This document shows, in pieces, positions 35,242 through 49,935 of a DNA stretch of 64,000 nt; within the stretch, counting starts at the first letter, position 1, and the number at the start of each line of letters is the position of its first letter. The stretch covers positions 42,901-106,900 of the forward strand of contig JAPLDU010000001.1 in NCBI GenBank assembly GCA_026391255.1, given 5' to 3'. A program made the position numbers and the translations under genes. This DNA is from Bacteroidia bacterium (lineage in GTDB: Bacteria; Bacteroidota; Bacteroidia; Bacteroidales; JAPLDU01). The notes below the pieces were generated by a model that saw only the letters and a list, made by a program, of their open reading frames with translations, did no database searches and had not been told where the DNA came from.

Positions 35242-36363
35242 CTAATTATTTGATAAATTCTCCCGGAAGTAATAAAATAATGCCAGTGGTCTGTACACAG
35301 CGTGTGCAAACTTTGAAAATGCAAACAGGAGTACCAGTTCCATTGAAATAATGGTATGCACTAGTAAAATGTAGTGATTTGCAGGATGGTTAAAAGTAAA
35401 AAATACGGATATTTCCATCCAGAAGCCTGTAAATCCTGCTATCCAAAGAAACCATAGGAAAACGTTATCGGCAATATTTGTCTCTGCATAAGACCTTGTG
35501 GCTTTCCTGCTGCGGTAAAGGAGCATCATGCTTGTGCCATAAATCAGAAATAAACCGGCCAGGGTTCCCAATATGCGGGCAGGCCACCAGGTTGTGGTTG
35601 CCGGATCTTTCAACAGAAAATCAAGTAAAGTGGCTGCAAGTAAACCAATAAACCCCCACATCACCGACCAGTGAATAAACCATGGTTTCTGAAAAGCAGG
35701 TTTGTCCTTCCAGTATGAATCTTCTTCCAGGTCGCATGTCCGGTAACGTTTCATGGTGGCTAATTCGCCAAATACTTCTTTCCAAGAACTAAGACAGCTG
35801 TTTTTCTTTGCTTCACCTGATTTATTACTTTTCAGCCTGAGGAACATGTTCAAAAGCCCCCAGATGATTGACATTCCGGTAATAGTGAATATAACCAGTC
35901 CCATGTTATGGATCACAGCGTATGGGATCATTTTAAATATCCACCTCGATACAACATGATCTGGTTTCAGGGTAAAAAGAAAAACCCCGAGTACTAATGC
36001 CATGATTGATGTAAACAGGATGAATAAAAGCTTGTTTTTGAACAATAACTTTGTTAGGCCGGTAGGTTCGTAGCTGGCAATGGCGTAACGATGCAGGGCT
36101 GCCATGTAATTACCGGGTGCGGCCTGCCTTGGGCAGGTTTCGGAACAATCACCGCAGGCATAACACAACCATAATTCTTTGCTTTTGAGGATTTCTTCTT
36201 TTAATCCTAACATACCGTATCGTATGAACATGCGGGGGAAGTTAGCATCATTTGCCGTTAATCCACATATAGCAGTGCAATTGCCACAATTAAAACAAGC
36301 ATTGAAATCGCTGGCTCCGTATTTTGTTATTTCGGATGCAAAACCCGGATCAATTCTGGTCAT
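35242..36363 (-). CDS. QmoC-like: HdrC-type 4Fe-4S domain fused to cytochrome b-type membrane domain
   Basis: N-terminal CFNCGNCTAIC and CYACGDCSETCP; about six hydrophobic helices with His residues C-terminally. Confidence 0.85.
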   Translation of the reverse strand: MTRIDPGFASEITKYGASDFNACFNCGNCTAICGLTANDANFPRMFIRYGMLGLKEEILKSKELWLCYACGDCSETCPRQAAPGNYMAALHRYAIASYEPTGLTKLLFKNKLLFILFTSIMALVLGVFLFTLKPDHVVSRWIFKMIPYAVIHNMGLVIFTITGMSIIWGLLNMFLRLKSNKSGEAKKNSCLSSWKEVFGELATMKRYRTCDLEEDSYWKDKPAFQKPWFIHWSVMWGFIGLLAATLLDFLLKDPATTTWWPARILGTLAGLFLIYGTSMMLLYRSRKATRSYAETNIADNVFLWFLWIAGFTGFWMEISVFFTFNHPANHYILLVHTIISMELVLLFAFSKFAHAVYRPLALFYYFRENLSNN

Positions 36364-38353
36364 GTTGTATATTCTTCAGTCTGTAATAATAATATTCATC
36401 GGAATCATCCATCCCATCAGCCTCAACCAGGCTGTATTTATTCATTGTCATCAGGTGATAAGTCAGGACATTGGCAGGTACATCAAGCTCTTTTACCAAT
36501 GCAGGTATAGTCTTTGATTCCTTCTGCAGAGATGCTGATATTCTTAGCCATAACTGCGGCTGGTCTTTCATTTCAGCCCCGGTAACTGCACTTTGTTCAT
36601 CTTCACTTTCTGCGGATTCTTTGAGTTCGACTTTCTCTGAAAATCCGTCAATCATTCCTTCGATTTCAGCATTCGAATACTGAGCTATGTCAATGGCATC
36701 GTTAGGGCAAACAGGTGCGCAGATACCACAACCCTTACAAACCGCTTCGTTCACTGAGGCAACTGTTTTTCCGTACATTTCCAATGGATGAACAGCGTCG
36801 TATTCACAGACTTCAGCGCATTTTCCGCACCAGACACAGGTATCAAAATTCACTCTTGCAATGACGGGTTCAAGTTGAATAGTAGGATTTTTCGTGAGGG
36901 CATTGATCTTAACTGTTGCAGCCATGGCTGATTGTACCGATTCTGTGATATTCTTCGGTCCCTGGCATGATCCGCCGATGAATACTCCATTGATCACTGT
37001 TTCTACAGGTCTTAACTTTGGATGTATCTCATTAAAAAACTTATCATTTCCGACCGGTATCTTCAGTTTTCCCGCTAATTCCGCTGTATCTTTTCCGGGA
37101 ACCAACCCGGTGACAAGTACCACAAGATCAGTCTCCAGTTCGAGGTCCTGTTTTCTTGTAAGTTCATCCTTCACCTGAATAAGGAGGCGATGCTTTGAAT
37201 TACTCACTTTGGGAGGTATTTTCTCATCAAATTTCAGGTAAATATCCCCGTTCTTTGATGATTGTTCATACAATACTTCCTGTTTCCCATAAGTACGAAT
37301 ATCCCTGTAAAGGTGATATACCAAAACTGATTTGAATTTATTATGAACAAGCAGTGAACTATGGATGGCAGTAGTGCAGCAGACCCTGGAACAATATTTG
37401 TTTTCGCCTTTGGTCTGCCGCATTCCAACACAGTAAATAAAAGCTATGCTGTTTACCTTTTTATTCTGATAATTGAGAGTATCACCGCAGTTATTTAATA
37501 GCTCTCTAAATTCAGGCAGGGTAATTACATTAGAAAGTTCACCATATCCATATTCACCAATAGCCGGCTGGTAATGGTCATATCCGGTGGTGACAAGAAT
37601 AGCTCCCACTTTTAAATTCAGTATTTCATCACTAATTCTGACTTCAACATCGAAATTTCCGAGACTGCCGCTGACCTTACCAATACCGGCATTAGTAAAC
37701 AGGGTGATATTTTTATCGGATTTCACTTTGGTCAACAGTGCGGAAATAATTTCATCACCTGTTTTTCCATCCATAAACATTTCTCCCCAGCGGGCAATGT
37801 GCCCTCCCGGTTTGTATTCCTTTTCGATCAGGTACACCTGGTTTCCCATTTGTGACAAACCTATTGCTGCACGCATACCGGATACGCCTGCACCAATGAC
37901 TACTGCTGCCCTTGTTGAACTGACTTCAATATTTTCAAGCGCTTCAGAATGTGAAACTCTGTTGATACCTGCCAGAATGAGACCTGCTGCTTTCTCACTT
38001 GCTTCTGATGGGGTGTCTGAATGAGCCCATGAACATTGCTCACGTATATTCACCTGGGTATAATTGTAAGGATTTAATCCGGCTCTTATTGCCACATTGC
38101 GGAAAGTATGCAGGTGAAGTTTAGGAGAGCAGGAAGCAACAACAATACCATCAAGCTTTTGATCAACAATATCATTGACCATTTCCTTCTGGTTTGAATC
38201 GGCACAGGCAAACATCACATTCTTTGCGACCACAACCCCGTCCAGTCCTTTCACAATATCTTTTATCTGTGATACATCCACATAGTCGGAGATATTTCCC
38301 CCGCAATGACAGATGTACACTCCTATCCGTTGTTTTTTCTCCATGAAACTCAA
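36350..38353 (-). CDS. HdrA/QmoA-like iron-sulfur flavoprotein with C-terminal ferredoxin and winged-helix-like extension
   Basis: VYICHCGGNI, VIGAGVSGMRAAIGLSQMG, YCSRVCCTTAI, CVWCGKCAEVCEYDAV, CKGCGICAPVCPNDAI. Confidence 0.88.
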   Translation of the reverse strand: MSFMEKKQRIGVYICHCGGNISDYVDVSQIKDIVKGLDGVVVAKNVMFACADSNQKEMVNDIVDQKLDGIVVASCSPKLHLHTFRNVAIRAGLNPYNYTQVNIREQCSWAHSDTPSEASEKAAGLILAGINRVSHSEALENIEVSSTRAAVVIGAGVSGMRAAIGLSQMGNQVYLIEKEYKPGGHIARWGEMFMDGKTGDEIISALLTKVKSDKNITLFTNAGIGKVSGSLGNFDVEVRISDEILNLKVGAILVTTGYDHYQPAIGEYGYGELSNVITLPEFRELLNNCGDTLNYQNKKVNSIAFIYCVGMRQTKGENKYCSRVCCTTAIHSSLLVHNKFKSVLVYHLYRDIRTYGKQEVLYEQSSKNGDIYLKFDEKIPPKVSNSKHRLLIQVKDELTRKQDLELETDLVVLVTGLVPGKDTAELAGKLKIPVGNDKFFNEIHPKLRPVETVINGVFIGGSCQGPKNITESVQSAMAATVKINALTKNPTIQLEPVIARVNFDTCVWCGKCAEVCEYDAVHPLEMYGKTVASVNEAVCKGCGICAPVCPNDAIDIAQYSNAEIEGMIDGFSEKVELKESAESEDEQSAVTGAEMKDQPQLWLRISASLQKESKTIPALVKELDVPANVLTYHLMTMNKYSLVEADGMDDSDEYYYYRLKNIQHDQN

Positions 38354-38541
38354 TTTGAAAATTTGAAAATTTGAAGATTTGAAGATGAGGAGATAGGCAT
38401 TAGTGAATTATGATACAAGTTCAGATAATTAATCATAATATAATTTTGAATTTCTATATTGGGTTCATATTTATTCGATTGACGATTCATGTGTTTACTT
38501 GTATTTTATGATAATTTTCAAATTAGCACATTTTCAAATTT

Positions 38542-41292
38542 TCAAATTCTTTCATTCAGGTAACCGGCCACTTCTGAGGCAGCACATCCTGCTGACAATA
38601 TCGAATCGGGAATATCCATTGGTGCTGCAGCAGTTCCGGCAACAAACACTCCATCGACCGATGTTCTGGCCGGGCTTGTCATTACATCTATCTGGCGTAT
38701 GAAACTAAACTGGTCAAGTTCCGGCTGATTGTCACCGAAGGCCTGTACAATTTTATTATCAGGCAAAACACCTACAGACAAGACTACCAGGTCGTGAACC
38801 ACTTCTTTTACCTGGCCGGTCTCAATATTCTCATATCTCAGGATAAGGTCTCCGCTTTTATCGTCCTTTTCCTTAATCCTTGCAACCTTACCTTTGATAA
38901 AATTTACTCCCATAGATTTCGACTGCTGGAAGAATTCTTCGTATCCTTTTCCGAAAGCCCTGATATCGATGTAATAAATGGTAATATCGGCCATGGGCAA
39001 GGCACCCATTAACAATTGTGCCTGTTTGATAGAATACATACAGCAAATCTGTGAGCAAATGGGGTTGTTGGCACTGGCCATGCTGCAGGAGCGGTAATTT
39101 TCAAGGCTTGAATCACGTGATCCGGTACAAAGCACATAAGCTATATTTCCCGGTATCTTTCCATCACCCGGTCGCAGGACATTATTAAATGGCCTGGTCG
39201 GAGCAATGAGACGGTCCATCTGCAGTGAATCGATTACGTTGGGATAGATGGCAGAGCCGTACTGAGGTTTAGATTCAGGATTAAACAAATTGAATCCAGT
39301 TGAAATGATTACTGAACGGGCGTTTGCAGAAATGCTCTCTTCCTTTTGTGAGAAATCAATGGCATCGGCCGGACAGGCAGAAATGCACTGATGACACTCA
39401 CGGCAGTTGCTGCAATCAAGACACCTGTTTGTACTCTGCCTGACCTCGTCTTTAGTGAATGTCAGTTCCACATCCTCGAAATCCCTGATCCTTTCTGAAA
39501 CAGGACGCATTTTTTCTTTCAGTCCGGGAAGCAATAAAATATCTTTACGTTCCAGTATCTTGTTTTTATCAACCGGAGCAAGCTTATCGCCAAATTCATA
39601 CTCTCCGGGATTTTTACCTTCCAGAAATTTGTTCATATAAAAAGCGGCCCTCTTTCCTTGCCCAATAGCTTCAATGATGGTTGACGGGCCTGTCACCGAA
39701 TCACCTCCTGCGAATATCCATGATGTGTTTGTTTGTAAAGTTTTATCATTTACTTTTATGGCTCCGTCTTTGCCCAGTGTCAGTTCTCTGCCGAACACCG
39801 ATGTTGTCGGATACAGACCAATGGCTTCAATGACGAAATCAACATCAACCGAATATTCCGAACCTTCAATGGAAACTGGTCTTCTGCGCCCGCTTTCGTC
39901 TTTATCACCAAGTTTCATCCTGATTAGCTCAGCTTTAACTACATTACCGTTTTCGCCTATAAATCGTACAGGGTTACTCAATTCATTAATTTTGACACCT
40001 TCTTCCTCAGCCTCATGAATCTCTGCTTTCCAGGCCGGCATTTCATTTCTGCTCCTGCGGTAAACAATGTTCACTTCTTTTGCGCCGAGCCTGATGGCAG
40101 TGCGAGATGCATCCATGGCTGTATTACCTCCACCTATTACCATGACCTTTTTACCTTCCAGGCTGATCTTATTCCCTATCTTTGATTCACGCAGAAAATC
40201 AAGGCATGAAACAATTCCTTGTAGTTCTGAGCCTTCCACATTCATCTTACTTGTTTCGTGAGTACCCACAGAGACAAACACGGTATCAAATCCAGCATTT
40301 TTAAGAGTTTCAAGATTTTCAACCTTGTGGTTCACTTCATATTCAACACCCAGCGACAATATGTTCATAATATCCCTGTCGACAATGGCTTTTGGAAGCC
40401 GGTATTCGGGAAGGGTAAGCTTCAGCATGCCACCAAGTTCGGAAGCTGCTTCAAATAATTTAACCTGGTGTCCGGCCAGTGCAAGAAAATAGGCTGCTGT
40501 GAGCCCTGCAGGCCCTGATCCCACCACGGCAGCTTTTTTGCCTGATTTCTTTTCAATTGAAATGGCAGGAGGAACAGGGTATTTTGTATAGTAATCTTCA
40601 GCAAAGAATCTCTTTATCCTGCGTATATCAACTGATGCTTCAAGGCTTGCACGTGTACACTCACTTTGGCAGGGAGCATAGCATGCACGGCCCAGACTGC
40701 CTGGTAATGGAGCATCCTCAAGGTGAAGCATCATGGCATCTTCATATTGTCCGTTCCTGACTAATGAAATATAGCCATATGGCTTTATACCTCCGGGACA
40801 GGCTGCGATACATGGCGCAGATGAATCCTGCCTGTCAATGACTGCAATACGGGGGTTTGCCAGGCTGAATGGTATATAGGCCACTTTTCGGCCTGCCAGG
40901 TAACGGTTGTATTCATCTGGTCTGACTTCAGGGCATGCCTGCTCACATTCCTGGCAGCCGGTACATGCTTCAGGGATAACATACCTGGGACGCTTATTGA
41001 TATTAATGCTGAACTCTCCGTTATTTTTCCTGATGCTCTTAATATCACTGTTCAGAAGCACAGTAATATTCGGATGTCTTGCTGTCTCTGACATCTTTGG
41101 AGTTGTGATGCAGGCAGCACAATCGAGAGTAGGAAATACCTTGCTTAACTGAATCATTTTCCCGCCAATGGAAAGTTCTTTATCAACCAAGAGAACTTTA
41201 TAATCCATATTGGCCAGGTTGAGCGCCGCTTCCTGCCCGGCAATCCCTCCGCCAATAACCAATGTGTCGAATGTCTGATTGTTATTTGTCAT
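38542..41292 (-). CDS. HdrA/QmoB-like flavoprotein with inserted GltD/NfnB-like FAD-NAD(P) oxidoreductase module
   Basis: N-terminal IGGGIAGQEAALNLA and CTGCQECEQACP; internal AAVVGSGPAGLTAAYFLALAGHQVKLFEA and VMVIGGGNTAMDASRTAIRLGAKEVNIVYRRSRNEMPA; C-terminal HdrA half CRECHQCISACPADAI, ICSQICCMYSIKQA. Confidence 0.88.
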   Translation of the reverse strand: MTNNNQTFDTLVIGGGIAGQEAALNLANMDYKVLLVDKELSIGGKMIQLSKVFPTLDCAACITTPKMSETARHPNITVLLNSDIKSIRKNNGEFSININKRPRYVIPEACTGCQECEQACPEVRPDEYNRYLAGRKVAYIPFSLANPRIAVIDRQDSSAPCIAACPGGIKPYGYISLVRNGQYEDAMMLHLEDAPLPGSLGRACYAPCQSECTRASLEASVDIRRIKRFFAEDYYTKYPVPPAISIEKKSGKKAAVVGSGPAGLTAAYFLALAGHQVKLFEAASELGGMLKLTLPEYRLPKAIVDRDIMNILSLGVEYEVNHKVENLETLKNAGFDTVFVSVGTHETSKMNVEGSELQGIVSCLDFLRESKIGNKISLEGKKVMVIGGGNTAMDASRTAIRLGAKEVNIVYRRSRNEMPAWKAEIHEAEEEGVKINELSNPVRFIGENGNVVKAELIRMKLGDKDESGRRRPVSIEGSEYSVDVDFVIEAIGLYPTTSVFGRELTLGKDGAIKVNDKTLQTNTSWIFAGGDSVTGPSTIIEAIGQGKRAAFYMNKFLEGKNPGEYEFGDKLAPVDKNKILERKDILLLPGLKEKMRPVSERIRDFEDVELTFTKDEVRQSTNRCLDCSNCRECHQCISACPADAIDFSQKEESISANARSVIISTGFNLFNPESKPQYGSAIYPNVIDSLQMDRLIAPTRPFNNVLRPGDGKIPGNIAYVLCTGSRDSSLENYRSCSMASANNPICSQICCMYSIKQAQLLMGALPMADITIYYIDIRAFGKGYEEFFQQSKSMGVNFIKGKVARIKEKDDKSGDLILRYENIETGQVKEVVHDLVVLSVGVLPDNKIVQAFGDNQPELDQFSFIRQIDVMTSPARTSVDGVFVAGTAAAPMDIPDSILSAGCAASEVAGYLNERI

Positions 41293-41687
41293 TCCAGTTC
41301 AGCTAATATCCTGGTAAAATTGGCCATATGGCTGGCAAACGGCTCAGCACAAACTGAACAGATCGCTGCCATCCTGATACGTTTCGGGCTGATATTTGCC
41401 TCCTTCATTAACCGCTGTGATTCCTCAATGATCATGTTGGTATATTCTGGACACTTAGAGCTGTAGGAACACTCATGCCCATCAGCAGCAATGAATACCC
41501 CATCGAAACCCTGGTTGAAAGCATGCATGATCCAGCGAGGTTTGATGCCTGAAGAACAAGGCAGACTTATCACATAAACAGAAGGTGAGTAATGGATTTT
41601 TCTCAATCCTGCCTGGTCAATGCCCGGATCAGAAATTTTATCAGTTGAAAATACCAGTATCCTTGGTCTGGTATGTTGATTTCCCAT
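41289..41687 (-). CDS. MvhD/FrhD-like delta subunit
   Basis: PRILVFSTDK...YVISLPCSSGIKPRWIMHAFNQGFDGVFIAADGHECSYSSKCPEYT; 4-nt overlap with the HdrA-like gene. Confidence 0.83.
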   Translation of the reverse strand: MGNQHTRPRILVFSTDKISDPGIDQAGLRKIHYSPSVYVISLPCSSGIKPRWIMHAFNQGFDGVFIAADGHECSYSSKCPEYTNMIIEESQRLMKEANISPKRIRMAAICSVCAEPFASHMANFTRILAELE

Positions 41688-41851
41688 GATTGTCTAATAA
41701 ATTGATAATAATCTTAAGTACTCCAAAATTCCGTGGATTTAATACTCTTATTTTTTTTGCGTCCCTTGCGTAAGTTGAGTTAAAAATTAAACGCAAAAGG
41801 CGCAAACGACGCAATTTCAAAGTACTCTTACAGAGATGTTAAAGATCATAT

Positions 41852-42103
41852 TCAGGCTTTTTTCAGGAAAAGTCTTGAATAACTGTCTTCTTCAATGATT
41901 CCGAGGAATTCATGTGTCATTTTCTGACACCATTTCGGAATGTCATTTTTGGTTCCTTCATCTGATGAATAAATCTCCATGATCTCACCTGATCCGATTT
42001 CCCCAATTCCTTTTTTTGCGGCCAGCAGTGGTCCGGGACAGGCTGTTCCTCTTGCATCAACAATTGTAGCTGGTTTTATTCCTTTTAATTCTTCTGTAGT
42101 CAT
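41852..42103 (-). CDS. tusA: TusA-family sulfur carrier protein
   Basis: IVDARGTACPGPLLAAKKGIGEIGSGEIMEIYSSDEGTKNDIPKWCQKMTHEFLG. Confidence 0.9.
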   Translation of the reverse strand: MTTEELKGIKPATIVDARGTACPGPLLAAKKGIGEIGSGEIMEIYSSDEGTKNDIPKWCQKMTHEFLGIIEEDSYSRLFLKKA

Positions 42104-42114
42104 TGTATGTTATT

Positions 42115-42666
42115 TTAAATGAATAATTGTATTTTACTTTCCTGAGCATCTGCAAGGAATGTTGCCACGCCACAAACTGTTAAACCGGGGTAATCAATCA
42201 TTTCTTCCTTTTTGAATCCCATCAGGTTCATCGACATCTCGCATATATTGATCACAACCCCAAGTTCACCGGCTGTTTTAATCATTTCAGGGAGAGATGC
42301 AACCTTGTGTTTTTTCATGATGCCTTTGATCATGGATGTTCCCATACCGCACATGTTCATTTTCGAGAGTTTTACCTTTCTGCTTCCTTTGGGAAGCATC
42401 ATTCCAAACATCTTTTCCACCAGATTTTTCCCTTTCCCGCTTTTTTCAGGATCACGCAAAGCTGAAGTAGCCCAGAATGTGAAGAATAGTTTGACTGTCA
42501 TATCATAAGCTGCGGCACCTGTCGCAATAATCATTGCAGCAAGAATTTTATCCAGGTCGCCGGAAAATACTACCATTGATAGCTGATCCTTTGTACCGGT
42601 TTCAATCTTATATACTTTGGAAGTCAATTCCATCAACTGCCTTTCAAAATCAGGGGTCATAGTCAT
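42115..42666 (-). CDS. DsrE2-like (DsrE/DsrF/DrsH-like) protein
   Basis: VVFSGDLDKILAAMIIATGAAAYDMTVKLFFTFW..., MNMCGMGTSMIKGIMKKH, CEMSMNLMGFKKEE. Confidence 0.85.
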   Translation of the reverse strand: MTMTPDFERQLMELTSKVYKIETGTKDQLSMVVFSGDLDKILAAMIIATGAAAYDMTVKLFFTFWATSALRDPEKSGKGKNLVEKMFGMMLPKGSRKVKLSKMNMCGMGTSMIKGIMKKHKVASLPEMIKTAGELGVVINICEMSMNLMGFKKEEMIDYPGLTVCGVATFLADAQESKIQLFI

Positions 42667-42742
42667 GTATATTAATTTATATATATAGATTTATAAATAT
42701 TTGCAATGTTACAAAGTATATAAATGCTTTAAAAATTATATA

Positions 42743-42758
42743 TGTGCTTTATATCACA
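42743..42758 (-). promoter_or_regulatory. Candidate Crp/Fnr-family operator upstream of dsrE2
   Basis: Minus strand TTGTGATATAAAGCACATAT; 18/20 identical to the palindromic site at 48438-48453. Confidence 0.6.
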
Positions 42759-42773
42759 ACACAATGTGCAATT

Positions 42774-43946
42774 TTACACATTGCGATTTTTGCCAATAGC
42801 AGCAATATCTGCAAGGGCATTTATTGCCGTATCGATATGATCCTCAGTATTAAATGGCCCTATACTTAACCTGACAGTACCATGAATTTTATCAGTTCCA
42901 AGCAATTCATGAACCATTGGCGCACACTGGAGTCCGGTTCGTACTGCAATATTGTAATCTACGTCAAGTAAAGTACCCACATCGCCTGAGTCGAAGCCTT
43001 TGATGTTCAGACTCAGAACAGGATTATGGTGGATTATACTTCCTGCGCAATAAATAGTTATGTTCTCAATATTCTGCAGACCATTTAGAAGTTTGTTCCA
43101 AAGAGCCATCTCGTGGTCATGCAGTTTATCAATCCCTCTTTCTAGTATCCATTTAACACCTGCATTAAGTCCTGCAACCCCAAGTATATTAAGTGTACCA
43201 CATTCAAGTCGGTATGGATATTCATCGAGGTGTGTTTTTTGAGCAGAACGAACCCCGGTTCCACCGTAGCGCGAATGGCGCACATTTACTCCTTCCATTA
43301 CGTATGAACCGCCTATTCCTGTCGGCCCCATCAGGCATTTATGTCCTGTGAACACAATTATATCAATTCCCATTTTTTTCATGTCGATAGGTATTGCTCC
43401 GGCGCTCTGGCTTGAATCTACTACAAACAGAACTCCATGTTCTTTACATATCTTACCAATTTCCTCAAGGGGTTGAATTGTTCCTATCACATTTGAACAA
43501 TGGTTCACAACTACCATTTTTGTATTAATGCGTAAGGCCTTTTTTATATCGTCAGGTTCGACGTAACCTTGTGAATCAAATGGGATGTAGGTCACATTTA
43601 TTATTTTATCAAGGCTTAAATGATATAATGGCCGCAGTACTGAATTATGTTCGAGCATGGTTGTCACCACGTGGTCACCTGGCTCAGCAAGCCCCTGCAA
43701 AATCATATTTAGTGAATCGGTGGCATTATAACTAAATGTAAGGCGGTTCGGGTCATCTCCGTTAAAAAGACCGGTAAGCAGTTTCCTGGTTTCCTGTACA
43801 AGGCTTTCTGTTTCAATTGCAGCATCAAACCCGGAACGACCATGGTTAACACCATGCTCACGGTAAAACTTGCACATGAAATCGTACACAAAATCAGGTT
43901 TTGGGAATGTTGTAGCTGAATTATCCAGGTAAATCAGATTGCTCAT
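42774..43946 (-). CDS. Cysteine desulfurase-like class V aminotransferase
   Basis: IYLDNSATTFPKP, VVDSSQSAG, FTGHKCLMGPTGIGG (PLP Lys), VRTGLQCAP (candidate catalytic Cys). Confidence 0.88.
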   Translation of the reverse strand: MSNLIYLDNSATTFPKPDFVYDFMCKFYREHGVNHGRSGFDAAIETESLVQETRKLLTGLFNGDDPNRLTFSYNATDSLNMILQGLAEPGDHVVTTMLEHNSVLRPLYHLSLDKIINVTYIPFDSQGYVEPDDIKKALRINTKMVVVNHCSNVIGTIQPLEEIGKICKEHGVLFVVDSSQSAGAIPIDMKKMGIDIIVFTGHKCLMGPTGIGGSYVMEGVNVRHSRYGGTGVRSAQKTHLDEYPYRLECGTLNILGVAGLNAGVKWILERGIDKLHDHEMALWNKLLNGLQNIENITIYCAGSIIHHNPVLSLNIKGFDSGDVGTLLDVDYNIAVRTGLQCAPMVHELLGTDKIHGTVRLSIGPFNTEDHIDTAINALADIAAIGKNRNV

Positions 43947-44095
43947 TTTGCTGGCATTTATATTAATTTTAGAATTACGATTTACGAATATAATAATATG
44001 ATATTTAATGGATTAAACAATATTTATGTAATAAATAAATTTCGGTTTAATATTATTAAAAATTGACTATTTGTGGGAGAATTAATCTTGAGTTT

Positions 44096-45394
44096 TCAGA
44101 AATTAGTTTTATGGGGAATAATAGCTTCCGCTACTATTTCGGCCATGGTCATCAATTTTATTCCAAGTTTATAATAAATGTTAACCTGTGTAAGCTGGTC
44201 GATACAATTGTGGCATGGAGTCACGACAATTTTGGCTCCTGTTTGCCTTATCTGTTCAGCTTTTATTACGGCTGCTTTCATCCGTCGCTCATTGAACTCG
44301 CTCATGGCAAGCTGACCGCCGCCTCCTCCACAGCAGAAATTATCAATTCCGTGAGGCTCCATTTCTATAAATTGTTTTACGAACTGTTTCAGAATATATC
44401 TTTGCTCGTTAATTACACCACCATTTCTAACCAGGTTACACGGGTCGTGAATCGTAACCGGTACTTTAATTTTATCAGGGTCGAGATTTATACGGCCTTT
44501 GCGGATATAATCAGCAATGCACTCAACCGAACTTATCACTTTGAACGGAAATTGCTGCTTAAGGTAATTCGGAGCCTCCCAGCGAAATGCCCTTGTACCA
44601 TGTCCGCATTCTGCAAGCACCAGCGTGTTGCAATCAAGATGTTTCATTTCTTTTCGCAACCGTTCTGCAATAATAGCTGCCTCTTTGTTGTTACCTGAAA
44701 AATATGCATAATTGGTCACATCGTACATTTCTGATGACAATGTCCAGCTTTCGCCGGCGAAATAAAATATTTTTGCCATTGCTGAAATCGACAACGGATA
44801 AAATTTGGGTTCCCTTGGATTAAGTGTATACAAAATTTCTTTTCGTTTTTCATTAACCGGAATACGTGAAAGGGGATCACCTGTCTCATCCATCAGTTCC
44901 TCTTCCATCCATTTAATAGTATCAAGAAATTCTGTTAAAGGGATACTCATATTATTTCCGCTTTCCAGCGCTGCATTCACCGTCGATTGCAATGTTGCAG
45001 GAACAAAGCCCATTTCGGAAAGCATTGTCCTTCCCAGGCGGACAAGGTATGGTACATCAACACCGGTTGAGCAATGCATAGAACATCTGCCGCACATGGT
45101 ACAAGCTCCAAAGAGCAGATCGGTCATCTCTGATGCAAATTCGCCGTTCAGTTCTCTTGCATTTACCAGCTTTGGAAACACTTTTCCCTGCCATGTGCAG
45201 TAACGCCTGTATACAGATGTTACAAGATCGGCTTTCCTGCCTGGCATGAACCGCTCATCTTTTGTGGCCAGATAAAAAAAACAGCTTTCCGCACAAAGAC
45301 CACAGTGCACACAACTGTTCATATTTGTAATCATCCTGCTGTCTGGATGATTATTAAATATCCCGGGTTTTATTTTTGGTGTATTTCCCTGCAT
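44096..45394 (-). CDS. DsrK/HdrD-like Fe-S oxidoreductase
   Basis: CVHCGLCAESC, CTMCGRCSMHC; CCG-type motifs HDPCNLVRNGG and NFCCGGGGGQLAM...VTPCHNCIDQL. Confidence 0.87.
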   Translation of the reverse strand: MQGNTPKIKPGIFNNHPDSRMITNMNSCVHCGLCAESCFFYLATKDERFMPGRKADLVTSVYRRYCTWQGKVFPKLVNARELNGEFASEMTDLLFGACTMCGRCSMHCSTGVDVPYLVRLGRTMLSEMGFVPATLQSTVNAALESGNNMSIPLTEFLDTIKWMEEELMDETGDPLSRIPVNEKRKEILYTLNPREPKFYPLSISAMAKIFYFAGESWTLSSEMYDVTNYAYFSGNNKEAAIIAERLRKEMKHLDCNTLVLAECGHGTRAFRWEAPNYLKQQFPFKVISSVECIADYIRKGRINLDPDKIKVPVTIHDPCNLVRNGGVINEQRYILKQFVKQFIEMEPHGIDNFCCGGGGGQLAMSEFNERRMKAAVIKAEQIRQTGAKIVVTPCHNCIDQLTQVNIYYKLGIKLMTMAEIVAEAIIPHKTNF

Positions 45395-45410
45395 TTCCCT
45401 GAGGTCATAT

Positions 45411-46055
45411 TTATTTTTCGTTTACCGGTGGCCATACTCCGCGTCTTCCAAAGAAAAGCCCGAGATGATAACGGGCTGCAAAGAAATATACGGCATGTTT
45501 AAGCTTTCCTACCGGAAAATAAAGGAAAAGCAAACCTGAAACAATGAAATATGTAAAGTATGCAGATGAAAAATTAAGTACAATGACTGTTGTTACCTGA
45601 AAACCTGTAACAAGGATATTGGAAATGTAATCATCAGGATTTGATAATTTGCGCATCCTGGAATTGGTCATCCTTTTTATCAGAATTCCGATTCCACACA
45701 GGGCAGACGAGACCAGCACAATTGATGTAATAAAAATAACAGGTTCTGAAGGTGATAACTGCAGCCAGATGAAAGGGAAAAAAATAAGCGACAGGAATGT
45801 TCCGGCATGATAGATAATGCCTGCGGCATATGTTGGGAGATGCAAAAATGCTGTTTCTTTTCTTGCCGGGTTCATTGATGAAGTATAGGCGTACCTGATA
45901 CTTTCAGAAATGTTGCCGGCTGGTACTGAAAAGTCCTCAGGACGGCCAGGAGTAACAAGCCGGATTATCAACCGAAGGCAGGTTATACAGGCTAACACAG
46001 GCGGAATTATTGCAACCCAGTAATACCATTTCATAGCACGGATAGTTAAACGCAA
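45411..46055 (-). CDS. DsrM-like cytochrome b-type membrane subunit
   Basis: Hydrophobic helices with His (IIYHAGTFLSLIFFPF; KLKHAVYFFAARYHLGLFFGRRGVWPP) and position next to DsrK/DsrC. Confidence 0.78.
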   Translation of the reverse strand: MRLTIRAMKWYYWVAIIPPVLACITCLRLIIRLVTPGRPEDFSVPAGNISESIRYAYTSSMNPARKETAFLHLPTYAAGIIYHAGTFLSLIFFPFIWLQLSPSEPVIFITSIVLVSSALCGIGILIKRMTNSRMRKLSNPDDYISNILVTGFQVTTVIVLNFSSAYFTYFIVSGLLFLYFPVGKLKHAVYFFAARYHLGLFFGRRGVWPPVNEK

Positions 46056-46363
46056 CCGTCAGGTTTAGGTAATCCTGCGACGCGGCATGCCCCGCGGGCA
46101 GGGCCAAGAGGAAATAACTCATATATCTCACGGAGTTTTAGTCCTGTTTGCTGGCAGATTACACGTATCATAGGCGCCATTCCTGTTTCTTCCCAACTTT
46201 TACGAATGATTCTGACAATTGCCCAATGTTTTTCATTTAATTCGGTAATGCCGTCGTATCCGGCAAATAACCGTGCTACTTCATCATTCCAAATGTCAGG
46301 CGTAAGTAAGAAACCATCACCATCAATCTCAAAATTTCTACCTTCAATTTCAATGCTTGGCAT
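46046..46363 (-). CDS. dsrC: DsrC-family sulfur carrier protein with both C-terminal cysteines
   Basis: EIDGDGFLLTPDIWNDEVARLFA..., C-terminus FPLGPARGACRVAGLPKPDGCV. Confidence 0.9.
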   Translation of the reverse strand: MPSIEIEGRNFEIDGDGFLLTPDIWNDEVARLFAGYDGITELNEKHWAIVRIIRKSWEETGMAPMIRVICQQTGLKLREIYELFPLGPARGACRVAGLPKPDGCV

Positions 46364-46374
46364 AATTCGTTATT

Positions 46375-47862
46375 TTATAAAATAAACCATGATTCAACTT
46401 GTATCGATGATCTGTCTTTTCTTTTATTAACAAATTCATTGGTTCGCCTGTCATATTCATAATCCCTGCCCCATTCATCATAATGATTCCGTATCTGCCT
46501 GATTGCATCGATAATGTAAATCACATCTGTATCAGACATAGTCGGGTGAAGCGAAATTCTAACCCATCCCGGCTTTTCTGACAGGTCGCCAGCATTTATC
46601 TTACCTGTGATTTTTCGTGATTTTTCATAGCTGACATCAAGCAGGTAATGTCCGTATGTTCCGGCACATGCACATCCGCCCCTTGACTGAATTCCAAACC
46701 GGTCACTCAGTGACTTAACGATCAGGTTATAATGGATACCGGGAATATAAAATGAGATAACACCAAGACGGTCTTTAATATGATCAGCAAGTATATGAAT
46801 ATCAGGTACTGATTGCAATTCCCTGAAAGCAATATTAACCAGTTGATCTTCCCTTTCATGAATTTTTGAAGTATTCATTTTGTTTTTTAAATCAATACAC
46901 AGGGCTGTCTTGATTGCTTGCAGAAAACCAGGGGTACCGCCGTCTTCACGAATCTCAATATTATCAATGAATTTATATTCACCCCAGCGATTAGTCCAGT
47001 CAACTGTGCCGCCCCCCGGTTGGTCAGGTGATTTGTTATTGTATAGTTCTGAATCAAAGATAAGAACTCCTGATGCCCCGGGACCACCCAAAAATTTATG
47101 TGGTGAAAAGAAGATGGCATCAAGTTTTTCCCGTGGGTCATCCGGATGCATATTAATATCATCATATGGAGCTGAGGCAGCAAAGTCAATAAAAGCAAGG
47201 CCTCCGTATTCATGCATCAAGCGGGCCATTTCATGATAGGGAGTACGAATACCTGTAACATTTGAACAAGCGGAGAATGATCCGATCTTACGCTTCCTGT
47301 CTTTGAATTTTTTCAGTGCATCTTCCAGTTTGTTCAGATCAACAAGCATATCTTCTCCTGGCTCGACTACCACCACATCTGCGGATGTCTCGTACCAGGT
47401 GGTCTGATTGGAGTGATGTTCCATATGAGTGACGAATATCACAGGTTTTTCTGTTTCCCTGAGACATTTACTGTGTAATATATCTCCGCAAAGTTTTAAT
47501 CCGAGGATTCTCTGAAATTTAACTACAGCTCCTGTCATGCCAAATCCGGTCGTCAGGATAACATCATCAGCGTTGGCATTTACATGTTCTTTAATCTTTT
47601 TATGGGCAAGATGGTAGGCCTGTGTCATCAGCTTCCCGGTTTCACTGGTTTCAGTGTGTGTGTTACCGATGAATGGACCGATATGTTCAGTGATCATTTC
47701 TTCAATAGGCCTGTATAAACGACCACTTGCAATCCAGTCGGCATAGACCATTTTCACCCTGCCATATGGAGTCTGGTAATACTGGTCAATACCAATGATA
47801 TTATTGCGAAATGTACTGAAGTATTGCTCTGAATGGACTATTTCTTTGTCTGTAAGGAACAT
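46375..47862 (-). CDS. Class V aminotransferase / cysteine desulfurase-like protein
   Basis: VILTTGFGMTGA, FIDFAASAPYDD, FFSPHKFLGGPGASG (PLP Lys), SRGGCACAGTYGHYLL. Confidence 0.85.
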   Translation of the reverse strand: MFLTDKEIVHSEQYFSTFRNNIIGIDQYYQTPYGRVKMVYADWIASGRLYRPIEEMITEHIGPFIGNTHTETSETGKLMTQAYHLAHKKIKEHVNANADDVILTTGFGMTGAVVKFQRILGLKLCGDILHSKCLRETEKPVIFVTHMEHHSNQTTWYETSADVVVVEPGEDMLVDLNKLEDALKKFKDRKRKIGSFSACSNVTGIRTPYHEMARLMHEYGGLAFIDFAASAPYDDINMHPDDPREKLDAIFFSPHKFLGGPGASGVLIFDSELYNNKSPDQPGGGTVDWTNRWGEYKFIDNIEIREDGGTPGFLQAIKTALCIDLKNKMNTSKIHEREDQLVNIAFRELQSVPDIHILADHIKDRLGVISFYIPGIHYNLIVKSLSDRFGIQSRGGCACAGTYGHYLLDVSYEKSRKITGKINAGDLSEKPGWVRISLHPTMSDTDVIYIIDAIRQIRNHYDEWGRDYEYDRRTNEFVNKRKDRSSIQVESWFIL

Positions 47863-48269: not shown

Positions 48270-48437
48270 ATATTTCAGATTATTGGTTAATAAACAAATA
48301 TCACTTTTACAAAAGTACTCAGTAATAGTGCTGTAGGAGGTAAAGGAAATGTGATTATAACTATAATAGGTTGTGAGAGATGACCTGATATTATATACGT
48401 AAATACACATACATATATGACTATGTAATTAATAAAT

Positions 48438-48453
48438 TGTGATATATATCACA
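48438..48453. promoter_or_regulatory. Crp/HcpR-type operator palindrome
   Basis: TGTGATATATATCACA, perfect 16-bp dyad TGTGA-N6-TCACA just upstream of the Crp/Fnr gene and near TAAGTTTG / TACTTTTG -7 boxes. Confidence 0.75.
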
Positions 48454-48475
48454 TATTGTCATTTTCTAAGTTTGC

Positions 48476-49204
48476 ATGATTACTTTTGCAACAACAAAAA
48501 CTCCGATGTTTGAATTTGAGAATAAAAAGACAACGTGTCCTGATTGTAAGGATAAATCCTGTGCAGCTGCCATCCTGAGCAGGGAAGAGCTTGAAATGAT
48601 CAACTTTAACAGCCATGAGAGTGTGGTCAAGAAAGGAGAAATCATCCTTCATGAAGGTTCTCTGACTTCTCATATTATATACCTGAAGAGCGGGCTTGCC
48701 AAGGAGTTTGTAAAACCCACACCTGAGTCAGAGCAGATACTGTCCATCGTAAAAGAACATACCTATTTAGGTTTGTCCTCTTTATTTGGTGACAGGATCA
48801 ATCACTATTCCTATTCGGCACTGGAAGATGTAAAGGTGTGCTATATTGATATTGCAGTTTTTATCAATCTGGTCAGGAAGAACGGAAATTTTGCATATGA
48901 AATATTGGTATCGGTGAGTCGTGACAGCCTGAACAATTTTCACAGGTTTATCAATCAACTGCATAAAAAGATTTATGGTCGTGTAGCTGATGGGATTCTG
49001 TATTTCTCCAGGATCATTTACGAAAATACCACCTTCTCCCTTCCCATGTCAAGGCAGGAATTTGCTGATCTGATTGGTGTATCGAGGGAAAGCGCCACCA
49101 GGGTGCTCATTAAATTCAAGGATGAGGGGATCATCAATATTAAAGGCCACCTGATTGAAATAAACAAGGTGGAATTACTCGAACAGATCAGCAGGAAAGG
49201 TTGA
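48476..49204 (+). CDS. Crp/Fnr-family regulator with Fnr-like cysteines
   Basis: cNMP-fold and HTH MSRQEFADLIGVSRESATRVLIKFKDEG; N-terminal CPDCKDKSC and central VCYI. True start may be ATG 48506. Confidence 0.9.
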   Translation: MITFATTKTPMFEFENKKTTCPDCKDKSCAAAILSREELEMINFNSHESVVKKGEIILHEGSLTSHIIYLKSGLAKEFVKPTPESEQILSIVKEHTYLGLSSLFGDRINHYSYSALEDVKVCYIDIAVFINLVRKNGNFAYEILVSVSRDSLNNFHRFINQLHKKIYGRVADGILYFSRIIYENTTFSLPMSRQEFADLIGVSRESATRVLIKFKDEGIINIKGHLIEINKVELLEQISRKG

Positions 49205-49239: not shown

Positions 49240-49935
49240 TCAGCCTGTTTTACTGATTTTTTCAAGCCTTGTTTTATCAATAATCACAATGTCTTTTTCT
49301 CTGAGGCTGATCACAGAATCTTTCTCAAGTCCTTTAAGCAGCTTTACAGTACTTTCGGTTGATATACCTGCAAAGTCGGCAATATCCTTTCTTGAAAGTA
49401 GTTGGAAAATCTCCGGATTTCCGGCCTTTAATTGATTAATATAAAGCAAAGTATCAGCCAAACGACCATTCATTTGTTTAAACAGAACATTTTGCAAAGA
49501 GTGAAACAGGTTTGTGTTTTGTTCACAATATCGTTTTATGATATTGAATCCAAACAGTCCATTTTGCTTTACCACTTCTTCAATAGCTTCCTTTTCAACT
49601 AAGTAAGCCTGGCATTCTGTAAGGCATACAGCCGAATAATTATAGGTGTTCTTTAAAAAAACAGATGACAAACCGACAAATTCACCTTTAGTTATGATCT
49701 TCAGGTTATAACTTTTATCATGTTCACTTTCAATATACTGTTTGACAAATCCGTGAATGATAAACAATATGTATGATGCAAAGACTCCCTGTTTGGTCAG
49801 AGTATCCCCTTTCCTGAAAAGCACCTGTGTCTTGCTTTTTCTGACAAGTTCCGCCTCGTCAGACGAAAGCATCTGAAAGCATGGAGCCTGTATGTCACAA
49901 ATGAAATCGTGATTGGTTTCGACTATTGTCTTCAT
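49240..49935 (-). CDS. Crp/Fnr-family regulator (second)
   Basis: FRKGDTLTKQGVFASYILFIIHGFVKQYIE...; HTH LSRKDIADFAGISTESTVKLLKGLEKD. Confidence 0.88.
   Translation of the reverse strand: MKTIVETNHDFICDIQAPCFQMLSSDEAELVRKSKTQVLFRKGDTLTKQGVFASYILFIIHGFVKQYIESEHDKSYNLKIITKGEFVGLSSVFLKNTYNYSAVCLTECQAYLVEKEAIEEVVKQNGLFGFNIIKRYCEQNTNLFHSLQNVLFKQMNGRLADTLLYINQLKAGNPEIFQLLSRKDIADFAGISTESTVKLLKGLEKDSVISLREKDIVIIDKTRLEKISKTG

Follow-up and report, generated by a model that had tools for sequence, protein, structure and literature searches.

We consider it likely, from the sequence comparisons given below, that the site at 42743-42758 belongs to a tandem pair of operators in a genuine dsrE2-tusA-mvhD-hdr/qmo promoter, a judgement made jointly with the model of its regulator. 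In that model, a dedicated Crp/Fnr activator would probably be bound as a phased array at both promoters of the sulfur locus, the one preceding dsrE2 and the divergent one preceding the first half of the locus. The features of the window, i.e., the whole stretch of 64,000 nucleotides analysed, are listed in Table 1.

Table 1. Positions of genes and of observed or proposed promoter features in the window.
Feature	Position	Strand	Remarks
QmoC-like membrane subunit	35242-36363	-	NF038018 188.9 bits, below 300-bit cut-off
HdrA2/Qmo-like flavoprotein	36350-38353	-	
HdrA/Qmo-like flavoprotein	38542-41292	-	GltD-like insert
mvhD/FlpD-like	41289-41687	-	PF02662 1.5e-27
tusA-like	41852-42103	-	PF01206 6.1e-20
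dsrE2	42115-42666	-	first gene of downstream operon; PF13686 1.8e-48
Proposed -7 element TAACATTG	42704-42711	-	one mismatch to TAnnTTTG; in register
-7-like element TATACTTTG of the initial annotation	42712-42720	-	out of register; 3-nt instead of 2-nt spacer
Proximal operator (rung 48) TGTGATATAAAGCACA	42743-42758	-	9/10 to TGTGA-N6-TCACA; site of the initial annotation
Distal operator (rung 70) TGTGTAAAATTGCACA	42765-42780	-	8/10; best site of relatives at same position
Cysteine desulfurase-like	42774-43946	-	directly upstream of dsrE2 promoter; TIGR01977 449.5 bits, above cut-off
DsrK/HdrD-like iron-sulfur protein	44096-45394	-	CCG and 4Fe-4S domains
DsrC-like	46046-46363	-	PF04358 2e-32
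SufS-like aminotransferase class V	46375-47862	-	
-7 box TACTTTTG of divergent (first-half) operon	48310-48317	-	
Half-site TCAC (rung 48)	48351-48354	-	37 bp from -7 box
Half-site TCAC (rung 70)	48373-48376	-	59 bp from -7 box
Weak rungs 92 (left half TGTGT) and 114 (right half TCAT)	48394-48431	-	same register; weak on their own
Perfect palindrome TGTGATATATATCACA (rung 136 of divergent promoter)	48438-48453	.	also just upstream of regulator gene
Crp/Fnr-family regulator	48476-49204	+	Cys21/24/29/122; CRP-type R-E-x-x-x-R helix; start may be Met11 at 48506
Second Crp/Fnr-like gene	49240-49935	-	convergent with regulator; T-E-x-x-x-K helix

Tandem operators upstream of dsrE2

The initial annotation had reported a minus-strand 20-mer matching 48437-48456 (+) at 18 of 20 positions, and this copy, TTGTGATATAAAGCACATAT, was recovered at 42740-42759. 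A search of the window allowing three mismatches returned only these two places, at a shuffle expectation of 0.02. The start assigned to dsrE2, 42666, was likewise upheld as the start of the open reading frame. The site is real but had been taken as single: its tandem partner begins exactly 22 bp upstream, measured from start to start, and the 22-bp array had been missed. The distal operator overlaps the stop codon of the desulfurase gene. Both operators have GCACA as their right half-site, and the proximal one is the stronger of the two.

The proposed -7 element lies 69 and 47 bp from the two operators. The promoter consensus of the primary sigma factor of Bacteroidota comprises a -7 element, TAnnTTTG, and a -33 element, TTTG (PMC7366714). 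The former occurs in exact form in the divergent promoter and in most relatives. In a matrix of 31 promoters, conserved bases were confined to the -7 box and two rungs, and neither TTTG nor TTG was conserved upstream of the box. When the window was scanned with the matrix of two rungs and -7 box at an allowed spacing of 69-71 bp, the promoter containing TAACATTG ranked first of about 128,000 positions with 22.9 bits. It again ranked first at a strict spacing of 70 bp, but with 9.8 bits, while the relatives, each left out of the training set, scored 23.7-62.7 bits on this scale; because of this difference the dsrE2 promoter of the window looks weak or drifted. If only the rungs are scored, the tandem gives the better reading on the plus strand, on which no -7 box is found. 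The element TATACTTTG, previously suggested as -7-like, is less likely to serve as such, as it is displaced by about one helical turn from the register kept by the relatives, in which TAACATTG is the element.

Conservation of the dsrE2 promoter in related loci

We collected 80 loci with a relative of dsrE2 from species-level genomes, the named ones being mostly Bacteroidota, and compared 80 dsrE2 upstream regions (the window and 79 loci) with 1389 control windows from the same loci. Perfect TGTGA-N6-TCACA was present in 51 of the 80 upstream regions and in 6 control windows; at a threshold of at least 9/10, the numbers were 62 and 22, respectively. In 38 dsrE2 promoters the spacing from the first T of the site (at least 9/10) to the TAnnTTTG box could be read, and it was 70 bp in 31, 69 bp in six and 71 bp in one. 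A second site or half-site occurs at 48 bp from the -7 box and passes 9/10 in seven dsrE2 promoters. A separate promoter after the desulfurase gene had been predicted, and the prediction is supported by the relatives, which keep the site and the -7 box at fixed spacing before dsrE2; in several of these, a desulfurase gene ends directly upstream.

The combined pattern of site, spacing and box was matched 19 times in 295 genomes, compared to two matches for the reversed control, and 17 of these matches are located at sulfur genes, with dsrE or dsrE2 in 15. Since the scans pick sulfur loci with little background, the promoter pattern can be used for regulon mapping. Identification by eye assigned the genes behind the pattern in genomes G151 (locus L166) and G039 (L167) to an SQR-like flavoprotein in one case and a multihaem cytochrome in the other. 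At both places a divergent regulator gene with the R-E-x-x-x-R motif is located beside the pattern; the family may thus have further targets among sulfur or respiratory genes.

Nine sulfur loci were examined for a divergent Crp/Fnr gene encoding an R-E-x-x-x-R helix, and all nine have one. A site within 1.5 kb upstream of dsrE2 was found in 64 of 64 loci with the regulator nearby and in 7 of 12 without it (Fisher P = 4e-5); in the latter seven, the contig is often short. Together with the presence of the matching helix in only one full-length paralog (see below), this co-occurrence supports the earlier proposal of a link, through the site, between the Fnr-like regulator and the second half of the sulfur locus.

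A 22-bp ladder in the divergent promoter

The first half of the locus comprises the genes for the SufS-like, DsrC, DsrK/HdrD-like and desulfurase proteins, and its promoter adjoins the regulator gene. We compared 13 such divergent promoters, that of the window included, which are partly related by descent, with many close relatives among them. The palindrome is separated from the -7 box by 114, 136 or 158 bp (115 bp in one case), and between the two, right half-sites TCAC follow at 22-bp steps. Every one of the 13 promoters has a TCAC exactly 37 bp from the -7 box. Outside the palindrome, 29 of 33 TCACs fall into one phase of 22, as do all 13 TCACs in a conservative subset of six promoters. 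Throughout the window and 80 loci, at least two rungs in the true register were encountered at 29 positions, whereas 42 shifted registers gave 0.21 on average and at most 5, the latter in the neighbouring register, which is that of the 69-bp promoters. In the genome of the window, the pattern TCAC-N18-TCAC-N33-TAnnTTTG occurs once, at 48310-48376 (-). The SufS-like gene is widespread in the order, and a ladder was found at 4 of 30 of its loci, among them that of the window. We read the dsrE2 and divergent promoters as following one grammar of a distal full site and phased rungs, with two rungs (70 and 48) at dsrE2.

The constant TCAC at 37 bp, the 22-bp phase of the remaining half-sites and a palindrome that shifts in 22-bp steps only, apart from the one at 115 bp, argue against the main alternative, in which one or two Crp/Fnr dimers activate in the ordinary way from full sites only, without an array, and the half-sites are remnants or have another role. 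We regard this alternative as unlikely but as the strongest of those considered: tandem Crp/Fnr sites are commonplace, many dsrE2 promoters have one perfect site only, at 70 bp, and in the group L076-L086 little is left at rung 48.

It is less probable still that the regulator acts at these sites as a repressor. The palindrome near the start of the regulator's own gene would fit autorepression, but in the dsrE2 and divergent promoters, which lack a conserved -33 element, the -7 box is preceded by the sites at distances that are fixed and phased, an arrangement typical of activator dependence. Just downstream of the palindrome, around the annotated start of the regulator gene, there are two exact TAnnTTTG boxes, at 48467-48474 (+) and 48481-48488 (+). 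As the spacings on this side are not conserved, autoregulation is only a possibility.

At three further loci (L215, L238, L239), direct repeats TTCACCGAT occur 22 bp apart and in the same register to a TAnnTTTG box. The genes behind them encode small membrane proteins, LiaF-like by eye. These repeats probably belong to a different regulator with the same geometry towards RNA polymerase.

The regulator and the specificity of its proposed site

The protein encoded at 48476-49204 scored above the gathering cut-offs of PF00027 and PF13545 and is thus a member of the Crp/Fnr superfamily. Its scores against the equivalog models of Fnr (52.1 bits, cut-off 228) and CRP (45.9 bits, cut-off 266) were far below those required, and in the alignment Leu, His and Tyr take the place of the cAMP-contact residues Glu72, Arg82 and Ser83 of CRP. 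The four cluster-ligating cysteines of FNR have counterparts in this regulator and its near orthologs. In more distant orthologs the third N-terminal cysteine is absent and the other three are kept; the sensing chemistry may therefore differ among orthologs.

The recognition helix reads SRESATRVL. Among the five full-length Crp/Fnr paralogs in the genome, R-E-x-x-x-R is restricted to the one adjacent to the dsrE2 locus; the other four have K-E-R (two), T-S-R and T-E-K at these positions. The dsrE2-linked orthologs share the motif, and the exceptions in the set are more distant additional paralogs elsewhere in the same loci. The second Crp/Fnr-like gene of the window was rejected as the cognate regulator, its helix being of a type that should not read TGTGA. 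Relatives of this gene also occur near dsrE2 in loci L102, L114, L120 and L121.

We searched the whole genome (4.08 Mb, 161 contigs) for the operator patterns. Within two mismatches of TTGTGATATATATCACATAT, only the two window sites were obtained, and three mismatches added one further place besides the reverse reading of the site at 48437. Perfect TGTGA-N6-TCACA occurs at two places, the regulator's own site and C105:4594. Many equally good matches genome-wide had been named as an outcome that would speak against the site; since the pair is unique within two mismatches and the perfect palindrome is limited to two places, this check came out in favour of the claim. A scan of 382 genomes of the same order for the tandem pattern TGTG-N8-CACA-N6-TGTG-N8-CACA gave five occurrences, each of them at a sulfur locus, compared to none for the reversed pattern; the one in the window is the only occurrence in its own genome.

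This rarity bears on the possibility that the neighbouring gene is not the cognate one and that the sites are used by a TGTGA-binding regulator with a broader role, similar to Crp or HcpR. CRP and HcpR1 of Desulfovibrio desulfuricans have the same palindrome as their site (PMC5701242), and the genome contains about twice as many near-matches with one mismatch as the reversed control. With only two perfect sites, no other full-length paralog carrying the helix, site and regulator co-occurring across species, and no hcp in the genome, we consider such a regulator very improbable. Chance resemblance of an AT-rich stretch, despite numerous genome-wide one-mismatch matches to TTGTGA-N6-TCACA, was rejected as having a negligible probability, given the shuffles, the uniqueness of the 18/20 pair and the tandem in the genome, the tandem scan, and the position and spacing kept in dozens of species.

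Proposed activation of the sulfur locus

From register, spacing, conservation, co-occurrence and specificity residues we infer the following course of binding, activation, cooperativity and redox signalling for the dedicated activator. The regulator would bind the dsrE2 promoter as dimers 22 bp apart, which by this distance would be placed on one face of the DNA, and would activate the dsrE2 operon from a -7 box located at a constant distance. The regulator would also activate the divergent first half from 48438-48453 through a longer array consisting of a distal full site and half-sites every 22 bp, the last of them 37 bp before the -7 box. At most promoters, the distal full site would probably nucleate binding, and weak rungs would extend occupancy to RNA polymerase, by analogy to BvgA, with the dimer nearest the -7 box contacting the polymerase. 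The signal is probably redox, sensed via the cysteines of the regulator. We regard as evenly balanced the more specific proposal that a full palindrome far upstream nucleates dimers spreading in 22-bp steps over half-sites to a -7-type promoter, and that each half of the locus responds according to its number of rungs. Single half-site rungs may be unbound.

The set of genes at 35242-47862 (-), encoding DsrC, DsrK-like, DsrE2, TusA and Qmo-like proteins, resides in a genome in which no match to dsrA was detected; the pathway is therefore probably not classical sulfite reduction. In the open-access literature, we found no described regulator for DsrE2/TusA/DsrC/Qmo-type sulfur genes in Bacteroidota and no phased Crp/Fnr half-site array. 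The analysis turns a single suspected site into a testable promoter grammar and points to a dedicated regulator of such genes in this phylum. If the rungs are truly bound, they would form a BvgA-like array made of a Crp/Fnr protein, for which that literature likewise yielded no description.

Comparison with known regulatory systems

In E. coli FNR, the cysteines are located at positions 20, 23, 29 and 122, closely resembling positions 21, 24, 29 and 122 of the window regulator. Unlike FNR, the latter has a CRP-like helix and a TGTGA site instead of the TTGAT half-site. CRP has the same DNA half-site and recognition residues and activates from upstream, helically phased positions. In contrast to CRP, the window regulator lacks the cAMP-contact residues, and CRP is not known to have a half-site ladder.

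HcpR-type regulators are recognized by an R-E-x-x-x-R helix and a TGTGA-N6-TCACA site (PMC5701242), both of which were found in the window regulator and its site. HcpR1 of D. desulfuricans further shares with it the Crp/Fnr family and a site at its own gene (PMC5701242). HcpR is defined by hcp and nitrosative stress targets, whereas the targets here are sulfur-transfer genes. TIGR01703 had no match in the 97.5% complete genome, and HcpR proper was rejected for this lack of hcp. Phased half-site ladders are not mentioned for HcpR1 in the passages of PMC5701242 consulted.

The closest geometric parallel is BvgA of Bordetella pertussis, whose dimers are spaced by 22 bp on one DNA face at Pfha and Pptx (PMC7250471). 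At Pfha, a high-affinity site farthest upstream nucleates occupation of weaker sites down to the core promoter (PMC7250471). A 22-bp spacing of sites and a strongest site in distal position were also found here, except that in the dsrE2 promoter of the window the proximal site is the stronger. BvgA, a phosphorylated response regulator, recognizes another motif and abuts a -35 element. Here, in contrast, a protein of the Crp/Fnr family is proposed to occupy rungs in the form of TCAC half-sites, and the core promoter has a Bacteroidota -7 box but lacks a conserved -33 element.
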